From the NCBI RefSeq assembly GCF_027942865.1, contig NC_134514.1, forward strand, positions 15,733,965 through 15,797,964: DNA of 64,000 nucleotides. The letters are read 5' to 3'. The number at the start of each line of letters is the position of its first letter. Position 1 is the stretch's first letter. The DNA is from Odontesthes bonariensis (lineage: Eukaryota; Chordata; Actinopteri; Atheriniformes; Atherinopsidae). The notes under the pieces were generated by a model. That model worked only from the letters and a program-made list of their open reading frames with translations, was not told the origin of the DNA and made no database searches. This document shows, in pieces, positions 4,201 to 47,715 of the stretch. Made by a program: the position numbers and the translations under genes.

Positions 4201-7200
4201 CACAGGCAATCAGCCTATTTCTAAATGCTATAGTACCAGAATAAAAAAGTGCTGACTGAGTGATCATCATCTAATGTGCAGCTTTACAAAAACACTAATA
4301 ATGGACAACTGGCTTTGTTTCAGTGAAACAAAACAAAAGTCTTATTTGTTTTTTTTCCTGACCTTGGCTGGCTAGTGTTGAGCGTAGCATCCCACTTTTT
4401 GACCAGATCTTGATCTGTCCATCTTCTCCGGCTAAGAGAAGAGAGAAACAATTTAAATGAGCATTAGGGACTACTGAATGTTTTAAATCCTCATTTTGAT
4501 GAAAATAAAAGAGAAGAAAATACAAAAGACTGTTTGAATGGAGATAAAAAAAAAAAAAAAAAATTTAAATGAAAACGTGTTCAGGTCATCTCAACCTGTG
4601 ATAAGAGCAGTCCCATCATAGTTCCATCTTCCGGCCAAAACCGCTCCTTTGTGTGCTTCGACGCTTTTCTCAATGCGTCCCATCTTGGAGGCAAGGTGGA
4701 ATTTTCCTGTAGTGAGAGAAAAAAACAAAAACATACGCTCTATTGTACAAAAACTTCGAGCTGATGTGAGTGTTTCCAGTCTTACATTTAAAACAGTTAT
4801 GTGTGCTGTAATACACTGGCTTTTAAATGGATGCATTCTTATTCCCAGATGATTCATATGTGCGTGTAATTTCAGTGGCTGCATAAAGCAAACGGACCGA
4901 ACTAATTTTTATGGCCAATCCAAAATATTAGTCAAGGGAAAATATCCACTAAGCTTAAAAAACACATTATAATACATGGACTGTATAAATAAATGCATCA
5001 CAACCACTCCCATTACACACAATTAGCATCAAAGCGATACTTCTCCAATAAACTAAATTACAAACTTGAAGCACGAAGCAGTTGAGTGAAACTAAACTGT
5101 TTCTGTTGGTTGAATTGGAGCAATTTTCTATTTGCTAGACATGAAAGGGTGATCAGGCATGGAGACAGTTATTGAAGACGCTAGCCTAACATATACTTTG
5201 TGGCAGTGTATATTAAAAATTCAGAATGTTCTATGTAATTTCTGGCAGCCTATAACTGCAAATCAGCACGCTGCCGCTCTCTCCCGTTTCTAAATTTGGA
5301 CGCCCCAACAAAAGTGCATGTTACTGATCCAGCAGGTAGTCAGCAAAACAGGCATGTACAGCTGCAGGAAAAAACAACCAAACTTTAAACTTAAAACAAT
5401 GTTTCTATTTCTATCACAACGCCGTTATCAGCAGTCCAAAGTGTGGGAAGTCCTTTAGTGTGATAGATTGTTTGTTTGCTTGTAATCTGGGAAATGTTTT
5501 CTTATGATGTCTCATAACATCATATATCTATTTCTTTTTTTTTTTTTTTAGCCCTATTCATATGTTGTTTAATAAGAAACAAACTAAAAAAAATAATAAA
5601 AAGAGAAAAGGGCCAAAGATATCCCTCATGGTTAACTTGTTTTACTCAGTGCCAAGTCTATTTCCATTGAACACAATATCCTCTTTGGTAGAATGGCACA
5701 TATTTCACTTAAGTCATGTTGCTATGCCCTTTAGCGATAAGGAAATAAGAATCTGAAGTAATGTAGTACAAGTATCATTTAGATGTTGTATGTTTGGATT
5801 TGAAAGGAAAGACAGAATATCACTGTTCATAAAATGTTTGCAAGTGTAAAAATTCAAAATACACAGAATAACCAACACACTTCCACGGGGATGGGAGGCT
5901 GAGTAATCACAAAAGGTTTAGAAAAGCCACAAAATGAATACAAAGTCCCACAAGCCTTACAAACCCTGGCTGTTAGACTGATTTCTTTTCAACTGGACCA
6001 AAAGTCACACAAAAGGTTATATGTGCAGTGCAGAATCTTCTTTGATTGGGATGTTTTGGGGCACACAATAACTAAAAGAATAAATCCACAACTATCGTGC
6101 TCACATTTCTCTTCTCCTATTTCAAGCCATATCAGTAGCGATTAATATTTGTGCAACTTGAATGAAACAAGAAGCCTGAAGAAAGTTGCTAAAGTGAATT
6201 CTAACAGAGTTTTCACAAGTCTCAAGTCTGCCAGAGAAAATTGCTGCTTCAGTTTGTGGGTGTGTTTATGCAACCCTACACTGCCATTACAGTTGTGACC
6301 ACACATTGCCTGCCATAGCTGTACATCCATACTCTGTGTTTATATCTAATATAGGATGAAGAACAGACATAAGAGACCATGTCACAGAGACTGTATCCCA
6401 GAGTTAACCAATTCAAATGCACAGCAAAGAATCCAACTTTAGTGATATTACACTGAATTCCTCCTAAGTATAAAAACAAGACTGAGAAATGAAAAGAATA
6501 CCAGTGAATGAACTAAAAAAGTGACGTTTTTGTCAAAATGTATTTTACTAATTTCCTTTTCTGTGTATACAGATAACGGGAAATTATTTCTGTCGAGTAG
6601 CTATGCAGTGAAATCTGTTGATAGAAACAAAGCTCTGTAGCCTGGAGGATTTCAGAGAACACATATAGACTTACCATCGGTGCTGGTGAGGACAAAAATC
6701 TCAGCCGGTGTCTGTTTTTTGCCACCAACAGTTTTGGGGAACCAATGTAGGTCAATAGGGTAAATGTCTTCTGGCAATCTGACAACCAGATTGGTTTCAT
6801 TGTTGAGCAGGTTCCACTTGAGGATCTGATGATCCTCACTACATGAGTACAGCTCATCTGCTGTAGTCCAACCCACACAACTCACAAGTTCCTTATGTGA
6901 TATGCTGTTAAGGACAATAATCAACTTTTTAGTATTTCAACTGACTGTATGAGTAGCTTATGCAATAAAACATCTTCTGACAAGTCTGAATTTGATACAG
7001 GTTACGTCTAACAGTGGAAAGAGCATTTAGTAAAGTGCTGCACATAAGTGGAGTTTCAAGGTGACTGTTACTTTGACTGATTTGTTTTCCCTTCTTATCT
7101 TAATAAATGAGCTGATGGCTCAATATTTAACAAAAAAAAAGTAGTTTTCTCTGCAATGGTTCGAGATTAAGTAAATAAATATACTGCTAAAAACATCTTT

Positions 7201-7692
7201 GTGTTTTACTACCTTCCTTTCACCTAATATATATGTAAATATACACACATTACTGTATATTAACTGGTATTTATAGATCACTTTTTTCAAACTAAATCTG
7301 ACTCAAATAGCTACAACACTAAGCACTGTTTTCAAAAGTACTTTCAATATCAATCATTTCATAAACTCATTCAGTCAGAGGAGCTAAACCAATAAATATG
7401 TTTACACTGTTTGTACTGTTGTATTCATAAATTTGGACAGACATATAATACAAATATATACATACATGCATACGGTACACAAAGTCTTCGGTTGCCATTG
7501 GTTACATTGCATAAGCCAAACAATCATTACAGTGCGATATTATCACTTAAAGTAACAATAAAGATGGAAGAAAAGGTTTTGAAGTTGTGTAAATATTTGA
7601 GCAAGAGAGTAACACGCATATTGTTGTTGAGCAAATTAAACCATAGAAAGGATATGTTTGGGTTCCTTCTGGAGCGATGTTTTTAGCCTCAT
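1242..7692 (-). CDS. ift80: IFT80, intraflagellar transport protein 80 (5' part of gene, first 183 codons)
   Basis: IFT80 is a WD40-repeat subunit of the IFT-B complex, which carries cargo along cilia. Coding exons in transcript order are 7692-7656, 6896-6675, 4706-4596, 4431-4363 and 1351-1242. They join in phase to 549 nt. The product starts [19 protein letters not shown] and runs through WD-repeat blades with [19 protein letters not shown] and [20 protein letters not shown], closely matching vertebrate IFT80 from residue 1. The family length is about 777 residues, so roughly three quarters of the protein lies left of position 1. Intron 1 is AT-AC; the other introns are GT-AG. The start is the conserved MRLK. 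A 5' UTR exon boundary with an acceptor just upstream (about 7709-7712) is plausible but inferred. The neighbour SMC4 is divergent. Introns at 1352-4362 and 4707-6674 show no recognised genes. Confidence 0.95.
1352..4362 (-). other. ift80: IFT80 intron 4, non-coding
   Basis: About 3 kb between the exon ending [10 protein letters not shown] and the exon starting SPVYSVAW. It contains the GGGGAC repeat, TG microsatellites near 2170, a G homopolymer near 3998-4010 and several A/T runs. Short open frames (for example 3244-3495 plus) match nothing I recognise and lack splice context. Confidence 0.6.
1705..1940. repeat. Dispersed fish-type repeat with TGGGGACC / GGTGTCCCCA ends
   Basis: This stretch lies in an IFT80 intron (downstream of exon 5). 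It starts with a TATGGGGACCAAAATG motif, carries several degenerate GGTTAG/TTAGGGTTA-like units, and ends with GGTGTCCCCATGAAGACAGT followed by a GT run. The inverted GGGGAC/GTCCCC ends with a TTAGGG-like interior resemble a dispersed repeat I recall from many teleost genomes. The class is uncertain. Confidence 0.45.
6897..7655 (-). other. ift80: U12-type AT-AC intron in IFT80
   Basis: On the minus strand the intron begins ATATCCTTT (from 7655), the U12 AT-AC donor consensus. It ends in AC (6898-6897), preceded by the branch-site-like GTCCTTAAC (6915-6907), whose branch A sits 11 nt from the intron end. Joining at these points gives codon CAT and the conserved KEPKHKELVSC. No GT-AG pairing nearby gives that protein. 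The intron is therefore predicted to need the minor spliceosome. Confidence 0.9.
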
Positions 7693-8400
7693 GGTTGCTT
7701 TGTTGTACTGTATCCTAAACGAACAACAACAAAAACAAAGTCATTTCTACAAAGTATTTAATCGCGGATTTACAAATTCATATATGACACTTAAGTCAAC
7801 CAAATACATAAAGAAAAACTTCGTAAGAGTCCAAAACCATAAACCTATTATGTTTACCCCGTAAAGGAAGCAAAGCAGTTGTTAGTTTACCCTGGTAGCT
7901 TGAACGGTAAATGAAACAAGCGTCTGCAGTTGCTACGGTACCTGTCATTGTTGCTAACGTGAATCCTCAGATGTATCCGTGTCGTGCCTGAAACTTGAAT
8001 GCTAACGGTCTTCTGATTAGCACGGGGATCATTCTGCCGTCACTGAGTTTACTGTGAGACAACCACTAACGCATACGTGTAATTTATTATAGATCGAATT
8101 GTCAATAATATAGAAAGAAACCATATCCCTCATCAGTCAGCATGTTTTACCTCACGTATAAAGGCTAACTTTTGGTAGCCATTTAATAGGGTTGAGAAGA
8201 GCTTGGAAAGTGAGTTATCGCGAGAGTTGCCAATCTCGCCCTCTTCACTGCAGATCTTTCTAAGTATTCGTAAACAAATACCATCAAGCGTGTAACATTA
8301 TCTATTAACATGTATTAAAATCAAAGTACATTTACATTAATCTATGATACAATTAATCTGAACAGTTTCCTGAAATATAAACTATATCATAGGGCGGGAC
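7693..8400 (-). promoter_or_regulatory. IFT80 5' UTR/promoter side of the divergent IFT80-SMC4 region
   Basis: No coding exon is seen here. Just upstream of the IFT80 ATG, the minus strand has a T-rich tract followed by TTTAG|GATACAG, a plausible acceptor for a 5' UTR exon. CAGG|GTAAAC near 7889 is a plausible matching donor, giving a first non-coding exon further right. TATCGCGAGA at 8216-8225 is one base from the TCTCGCGAGA promoter palindrome often seen in TATA-less divergent promoters. The TSS is not determined. Confidence 0.4.
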
Positions 8401-10092: not shown

Positions 10093-11155
10093 ATGCCATC
10101 TAAAACTACAAAGAGCTCAACTGCCTCCGCCAAGCCAAGAGTGAAGGGGTCGCAGCCTCGGGATGACTCCGAGGACGAGCTGGATGTACCCCCTCAAGAA
10201 ACCAACTCCAATGGCCAAGAGGAGGCACCGCCGACAACTGGCAAGTAACAAAGGGTGTTTTGGTGTCTGTGAATCTAAATAAGTTGTTCACTCAATGGCT
10301 TTGCGTGTATTGCTGCACTGGTAGAGACCATTTGGCACAGCTTTAAAGCTTTTTTTTTTTTTTTTTTTTTTTTTTTCTTGCTTAAATCCGAACACGTAGT
10401 TACAATGGCTGATAGGTTTTTTTTCTGAAGTGCCAGTCATCAGTAAAATCATTTTTGGGATGATTTTGATACCGTCGAAGGTACTTCTTCGCCAATCCTG
10501 TCGGCAAACAAGGTAATTTATTTCGAATAATGACCAGATTTGTGATTTGGATCTAAACGGTACATGACTTAATGCTTATAACTTGATATTAAATCATTTG
10601 CATGCTACTTCTGAGAAGCCCATAGGCAACGGTAGATGTTTGTAGTCATTTGGATATGTTGAAACGCTTCACTGGGTGTCCGGCTGCTACAATTTGATGT
10701 AGAAACATAGACTCTGCTTTGCTTGTTTATGCTTATGTGAGCACAATGGATTTTGAACAGGTCGTTGTGGCTTGGTGTGATGGCAACGTAGTCCTTTTAA
10801 CGTTATACATCACTACCACAAAACAAGATTTTGCTCGTGTGTGTGTTTTGATTGCAGTTAAGCATGAGTAAAAATGTGACGCTGGTGATAGCGATATACA
10901 CTTTAGTTATTTATCATCGACGTAGTGACTGTGGCGCATCTACTCTCGCGTATCGGCGCTTCTCGTGTAGAGCGTTTGTGTAATAATGTGGGTTCGTTCA
11001 AACGCTACCATGGTCTTTCTTTATTTGTTGTGCCCCCCCTCTCCTCTCTTTGGTTTGCTCTTGTTTATAGAACAAAGGAAAATAGCGCCTGACAACTTTC
11101 TCTAGAGTCGTTGTTTGACTGTGACTTGCTGCCTGTGTTTTGTTTGTTTGTTTTT

Positions 11156-11196
<41 letters not shown>

Positions 11197-14100
11197 CCTC
11201 CACCCCTCCCCCATGCACCACTGTCCCCCACCTGAAACGACTCGCACAGAAGAGTAAAAGTTGTACTTTTTGTGCCACAGATTCGTCTCAGGGGGAAGCT
11301 GCCGAGGCGGTTGATAATCGAAGTTTGGAGGAGATTCTCGGTAGCATCCCTCCACCCCCGCCCCCAGCAATGACCAATGAACCGGGCGCTCCTCGCCTGA
11401 TGATCACACATTTAGTTAATCGCAACTTTAAATCGTACGCAGGCGAGCAGATTCTGGGGCCTTTTCACAAGGTACGACCAAACAGGTTTAAATTTATTCT
11501 CTTGCTAGGAAATACTTCATAAATGTGCTGTGCTTAGACCAGGTTTACCACCACTGGCAGTTGTGTCTTAACCTTATTTTATTTGTGTAAATTTTCCACA
11601 TCTTCTAATTGCATATATGTTATCTTCTGTAGAGGAAAACATAAACAATTATCAGGGGGGAAAAAAATCATGGAGCTATATTAAAGCATTTGTTCAATTA
11701 AGAAAAAAAGAATCAAAGTGGAAAAAGTCATAATCCTCCATTTTGATTTGGTGAGTGTATTTCACAAGCAGTGGTGATGAGGTGGTGTAGACACATTTCC
11801 TTTAAATTATGACTTTCTTTAAGCTTTTATCTTTTGACATTTTTGTGGTCTCCTTATTTCTCTGAAAGTATATTTTTTATATATTAAATCTTAACTACAC
11901 TCACACAGAATTCATTCACTGTTCCACTCTCACTGTGCAGAAATGCTATCACAAACTTTTAAAGGCTTAGAAAATTTACTGTGTCTGTTTGCAGATGTTT
12001 TTTTGGTTTCTCGTAATTGATTTCTGTATTTTTGTGTGCTCTTACCTTCCTCTCAGCGCTTTTCCTGCATCATTGGACCAAATGGAAGTGGGAAGTCCAA
12101 TGTGATAGATTCAATGCTCTTTGTGTTTGGATACAGAGCTCAAAAGATCAGATCGAAAAAGCTCTCAGTGCTGATTCACAGCTCTGATAAACACAAAGAT
12201 GTGCAAAGCTGTACTGTGGAGGTGCATTTTCAAAAGATTATTGATAAGGTACATATATATATGTGTGTGTGTGTGTGTGTGTATTTACTTCTCTGTAGCA
12301 CAAATACAAACTACACTCACTTTGAATGAATCAATAAGCAGTTCAAACTGAGAAGCATGATGGGAAATATTTTTCTGTGGACAGAAATTATTGCAGGATT
12401 TTAGACATATTATTTTCTCAATCCTCATTTACAATATTGCAACTCATTTATCGCATCGGTGACTGAACACAGACTCAAATCAGTCATGAAAGTTGCAGCT
12501 CACTCCCACACATGCAACGATCACTTCATATTGTGCTAGAAGCGATCCCTCGATTTTTAATTATTTTTTAAAAAATTAACCATGTAGTGATTGGGCTCCA
12601 CTTTGACTGTACAGCAAAAAAATTAAAAATGGGGAGACAGTGGGTGTTTATATGAGGAGAAAAAATTAGTCAGATGCATTAAATGACAAACTACAAGTGG
12701 GACAAACTCACCTGTGTATTTAGCAGATAGATGTGATTATATTTTTAATCTGCCACAGGGGGGGTGGGTAAGTTTTGCCCTGACTGCTGATGAAGCTTCT
12801 CTGTTTGCTTCATCAGAGTAATGTAAATTAAAATGAATCAGTCGAACCTCCTGCACGGTGCTGTGTCGTCTGTCAGCTGTACAAGCGGATGTTTTTCAAA
12901 CCTAAAAATATTTTTTTCCAGAGCTGGTGTACTCAGCTCTGACTGATGGAATTGTTTCTAAAAGTAAAACATTTTTGGGCAGATTGCCTACCCTTTTTTA
13001 TGCATTGTATTTGTGATCTTAACACCTATAACAAGTTTCTTGAATTCTGTAAATTTGATAGAATACACTCCTGACAGCCACAGTATCATGTTTTTAAAAT
13101 CCATGGCTGGCCCAGTGCTTTGGTGTGTTTTTTAAACAAGCCTCGTTCTTAATTGCTTTTAATGTGGTGTGTGTGTTTTTTTTTTTTTAATTTTAATTAT
13201 TGTTATTATTTTGTTAGTTTTTTTTCCTCAAAGCACTCTCAGTGGATTTGTCAGCACTATGAGTATAAAAGTTTGATGTGTGGAGCTGTTTCAGTCTCTC
13301 CTGAACTGCTCTGTCTTCTGCCCCTCCCCCCTCTGAGTCAGGAAGGAGATGACTACGAAGTCATCCCCAGCAGCAAGTTCTATGTTTCCAGGACTGCCAA
13401 CAAAGACAATTCCTCAGCCTACTATATCAATGGCAAGAAAGCCACATTCAAAGAAGTGGGGACTTTGCTCCGAAGCCATGGCATTGACCTAGACCACAAC
13501 CGATTTCTGATCTTGCAGGTAATTGGCCTTTCTTTTTCTGTAATTTCCTCCACTTCTGCCATTTCTAACTCTGCCTTTTTTTGTTTTTAATTCCCCCCCC
13601 CCCCGGGACCATCCCATTCTGTCAGAGATTTCCTGCTTATCGTTTTCTGCCCATTTCCTATTCCTTTTTTAGTCAAACGTTTCATGTACCTACCAGCCAT
13701 GCCTTTAAATGGGAAATAACCTGTTGCACTGGACTTGGAAAGGAGAGGATGTGCTCTCTGACGGCCCTTAGATTGCTATAGCAGCGCATCATGGTTTGAA
13801 ACAATGTGGAAAAGGTGCGAACCATTATTTGCTGCTTTAGAATTATAAGGAAAAGCTGCAGTTTTTACCGCACATCGACCTGCATGCAAGCTGAGCTACT
13901 CCCTCAGATTTTGTAGTGGGGAAATCTTTGATAATGACCCACCAGTCCGGACAGGTTGGGCCTCCCTTCCCCTCCCTCCCGCCATGTACCTGCCACGCTT
14001 TAGCAGCACGTAAATATTGGCGTGTGAGAATAAACCCCAACCCCAATATTGGCAGTGCTGCTTCAGTGTGGCCGGATCAAACACCCTCCATTGCCATGGC

Positions 14101-34133: not shown

Positions 34134-47715
<13,582 letters not shown>

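Follow-up and report, generated by a model that had tools for sequence, protein, structure and literature searches.

A probable minor-spliceosome AT-AC intron within codon 13 of IFT80 in Odontesthes bonariensis

Analysis of a 64,000-nucleotide stretch of Odontesthes bonariensis DNA (hereafter, the window) revealed an intron of IFT80, running from 7655 to 6897 on the minus strand, that we assign from its letters, with a probability of about 0.96, to the AT-AC subtype of vertebrate minor (U12-type) introns. It adds an unremarkable example to the minor-spliceosome AT-AC introns, which are a known class, and by analogy with the human gene it is most likely the orthologue of a minor intron that has been recognized before. 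We count the finding as already known because human IFT80 has been listed among the minor intron-containing genes, most likely on account of this intron.

The intron occupies positions 6897..7655 of the minus strand (759 nt, phase 1; the strand was read and the junction rebuilt), begins with ATATCCTTT, and ends with ...TTGTCCTTAACAGCATATCAC, the terminal AC being located at 6897..6898. The coding sequence of the first coding exon (7656..7692, minus strand; ATGAGG...CCCAAAC) extends from the ATG to the first base of codon 13, its last codons being ...CCC AAA C. The second coding exon (6675..6896, minus strand) starts with ATAAGGAACTTGTGAG, is read in the frame AT AAG GAA CTT GTG, and has its 3' end at a U2-type donor boundary (G|GTAAGT). 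Joining 7656 to 6896 reunites codon 13, which is split by the intron as C|AT, and restores His13-Lys14. The initial annotation had placed an intron at 6897..7655 in codon 13, and the rebuilt junction bears out both the coordinates and the codon. Owing to repeated bases at both intron ends, six equivalent cut positions produce an identical mRNA, with the ends AC-TC, CA-CA, AT-AC, TA-CA, AT-AT, and TC-TA. None of the six has GT-AG ends, and the U12 donor is in register only with AT-AC.

The identification of the host gene as IFT80, likewise proposed in the initial annotation, is upheld by protein comparison. Five exons in the window encode 183 residues of a partial gene, and residues 1-180 of this query align with residues 1-178 of the solved IFT80 chains 8bd7_I and 5n4a_A (E 1.5e-58), which rank second and third among the 69 sequences matched. 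The top-scoring entry, 2ymu_A, is a WD-40 repeat protein; its 13 matches all lie from residue 95 on, leaving the N-terminus uncovered. In a search with 87 residues, the alignment to solved IFT80 starts from residue 1 and passes ungapped across the junction. Both solved structures come from Chlamydomonas. The IFT80 gene extends past the window edge at position 1, and only the start of its fifth coding intron (GTACAC, at 1241) lies inside the window. GT-AG ends are found in each of the remaining three complete introns, whose donors are GTAAGT, GTTGAG, and GTCAGG.

U12-type introns are characterized by the 5' splice site (A/G)TATCCTTT and the branch site TCCTTAAC, the motifs used in our scans. 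The donor ATATCCTTT at 7647..7655 fits the 5' splice site motif exactly, in line with the earlier claim of an exact U12 AT-AC donor in an intron ending with AC, and the branch TCCTTAAC at 6907..6914 is an exact fit to the branch motif. The second A of the branch is position 6908, 11 nt upstream of the final intron base, the same distance from the terminal AC that the initial annotation had given for a branch-like motif. This spacing falls inside the range of 11-13 nt described as optimal between the branch and the 3' splice site of U12-type introns (PMC3584512). The motifs, their spacing, the frame, the frame effect of retention, and the status of this junction as unique in the enumerated set were all read directly from the sequence.

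Taken singly, the two motifs occur at the following frequencies on both strands of the window: one exact copy of ATATCCTTT versus 0.57 expected, and two exact copies of TCCTTAAC versus 2.08 expected, one of which is the IFT80 branch. The other exact TCCTTAAC is located at 43564..43557 on the minus strand, and no exact ATATCCTTT donor makes a module with it. An exact module was defined as the donor, the branch, and an AC located 9-15 nt past the second branch A, with a total length of 60-5000 nt. The window contains one such module, whereas 41 modules (mean 0.027) arose in 1500 first-order Markov resamplings, with at least one module in 36 of the 1500 resampled windows, and a separate set of 100 resamplings gave none; all these figures leave out the coincidence with the exon borders demanded by the protein. 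Scans of the window that tolerated mismatches were not counted as evidence because their yields were close to chance: the exact donor with at most one branch mismatch was found once versus 0.6 expected, which is no excess, and at most one mismatch in the donor and in the branch gave 22 hits versus 17.25 expected.

Two further properties of the intron were compared. U12-type introns lack a distinct polypyrimidine tract; the pyrimidine fraction before the 3' end is 0.60 in this intron versus 0.85, 0.80, and 0.80 in the three other complete introns, a comparison of four introns in which the branch motif of the AT-AC intron itself adds pyrimidines. Phase 0 is under-represented among U12 introns (PMC7367187), and phase 1 of the AT-AC intron agrees with this bias; phase is regarded as weak support for the U12 class because the other three complete coding introns share this phase. 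The donor ATATCCTTT is printed for SMYD2 of human, dog, and chimpanzee (PMC7367187). The human SMYD2 intron, a U12-type AT-AC intron in Table 1 of that paper, shares with the IFT80 intron the donor, the AC end, and phase 1, but it has the branch TCCTTGAC instead of TCCTTAAC and resides in a different host gene.

Because the motifs match the U12 type, the intron would be removed by the minor (U11/U12/U4atac/U6atac) spliceosome. By established knowledge of this machinery, ATATCCTTT would be recognized by U11 and then by U6atac, U12 would pair with TCCTTAAC leaving one A bulged, and the minor spliceosome would join 7656 to 6896. We infer, in addition to the spliceosome class, the use of the intron, its orthology with the human intron, and decay of transcripts that retain it.

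To ask whether the junction is unique, we enumerated introns with five classes of ends (GT-AG, GC-AG, AT-AC, AT-AG, and GT-AC). Donors were taken between codon 2 and a point 150 nt beyond the site, acceptors in the range reaching 150 nt upstream and 40 nt downstream of theirs, and introns of at least 60 nt were kept if they were in frame and retained a fixed stretch of 15 residues. The protein length is kept by only one of the 17 in-frame products, the AT-AC join 7656/6896; this product alone was aligned to the solved IFT80, and the other 16 were judged on length. The nearest other products, both with AT-AG ends, are one residue shorter and two residues longer, and the two in-frame GT-AG products are longer by 3 and 14 residues. 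The earlier claim that only one pairing restores KEPKHKELV is true across the 17 enumerated products. The possibility that a GT-AG junction yields the same protein, named in the initial annotation as counter-evidence, was considered and rejected: such a junction is absent from the six equivalent cuts and from the 17 products, and both in-frame GT-AG products are longer.

Among the enumerated products is one from a candidate cryptic GT-AG intron (6892..7641, minus strand; ATG|GTTTAA ... ATAAG|GAA), which has both of its ends near those of the AT-AC intron and would bring a net gain of three residues (PKHILSMELVS). The major spliceosome might use this pair, with the donor at 7641 and the acceptor ending at 6892, to produce the extended N-terminus. 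The pair is in frame, and in CENATAC-depleted human cells failing A-type minor introns are accompanied by activation of cryptic or annotated major sites (PMC8280824); however, the donor at 7641 deviates from GTAAGT-like sites, the product requires an insertion relative to the solved IFT80, and an exact U12 module adjoins the pair, and we consider this explanation highly unlikely. Still less probable is a U2-type AT-AC intron, that is, the same intron spliced out by the major spliceosome. The sodium channel introns of this type carry G at +5 (PMC2831892), whereas +5 of the IFT80 intron is C, and the donor and branch are exact U12 motifs. The class of an intron does not follow from AT-AC ends by themselves (PMC3584512), but this reading was rejected on the +5 position. 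The chance that the motifs coincide by accident and that real splicing occurs elsewhere, for instance at the in-frame AT-AG pair making a protein one residue shorter, seems negligible: exact modules do arise in 36 of 1500 resampled windows, but the module in IFT80 matches, to the base, the sole length-keeping join among 17, and AT-AG pairs are seemingly disfavoured (PMC3584512).

Under removal of the AT-AC intron by the minor spliceosome, the preferred reading, the coding consequences of retention are as follows. The retained frame reaches a stop after 18 residues, and the next Met in the IFT80 frame is residue 95, so that no nearby start would rescue the N-terminal part. Since retention stops translation at this point, IFT80 protein would depend on intron removal, as the initial annotation had proposed for IFT80 output. 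The gene would represent a clean case in which the protein of a cilium gene, beyond residue 18, hinges on the removal of one AT-AC minor intron. A-type (AT-AN) minor introns have the strongest CENATAC dependence and a lower splicing efficiency, and loss of CENATAC in human cells affected 92% of them versus 24% of G-type introns (PMC8280824). Weak minor splicing could conceivably lead to a fallback on the GT-AG pair 7641/6892, with three residues added to IFT80 just before the WD repeats; we find this unlikely, and if true, the pair would constitute a built-in minor-spliceosome bypass in IFT80.

Human IFT80 is named as a minor intron-containing gene together with IFT88 and IFT74 (PMC13216214). 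Taken with the non-canonical IFT80 intron described below (PMC7730772) and the CENATAC dependence of A-type introns (PMC8280824), this makes an orthologous AT-AC intron in human IFT80 likely. In ZCRB1-heterozygous human cells, six IFT-B genes are down-regulated: IFT88, IFT74, IFT80, IFT27, IFT57, and IFT172 (PMC13216214). IFT27, IFT57, and IFT172 are not labelled there as minor intron-containing, so that the fall alone is no proof of a direct splicing effect. The sensitivity of IFT80 to minor splicing, suggested in the initial annotation, has a parallel in these cells, which concerns the mRNA level and not the splicing of the AT-AC intron. An IFT80 intron without canonical splice sites has also been described, with putative intron sliding between human and naked mole-rat (PMC7730772). 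It resembles the AT-AC intron in its non-GT-AG ends; the six equivalent junctions found here suggest that an AT-AC intron with ambiguous annotation could account for such a slide. Pattern searches for relatives gave 9 matches in viral_contigs and 33 in genome_contigs, none of which was confirmed.

Upstream of the ATG, a candidate U2-type acceptor is observed on the minus strand at 7715/7714 (...GTTCGTTTAG|GATACAG), the preceding stretch ending with TTTAG at 7715. The segment 7693..7714 that follows it (minus strand) is the probable 5' UTR part of a 59-nt first coding exon. The letters around this acceptor suggest an intron in the 5' UTR, and the 59-nt exon with the ATG would then lie between a major and a minor intron. 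The repeats found in the region 6600-8000 comprised only one 14-nt direct pair and two 16-nt inverted pairs and were uninformative.

A plus-strand gene is arranged head to head with IFT80; its start codon was read at 10093, and its later exons encode SMC domains. Pfam matches were obtained for 7 of 10 open frames (RING, B-box, Arm, Arf, PP2C, and two SMC_N pieces); the three open frames without a match include an IFT80 piece (4594-4908), for which no family was found at E 0.001. The gene order past IFT80, in the region 12021-54930, looks conserved: an SMC domain gene on the plus strand is followed by RING/B-box, Arm repeat, Arf, and PP2C genes on the minus strand. Precursors of miR-15 and miR-16 (13766-13850 and 13992-14072, plus strand), both above the Rfam gathering score, are located between two SMC-domain pieces. 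The presence of miR-15/miR-16 within SMC4 is the usual arrangement in vertebrates. Together with this pair, the gene order recalls the vertebrate block IFT80-SMC4-TRIM59-KPNA4-ARL14-PPM1L, and the neighbours of IFT80 are putatively assigned these names.
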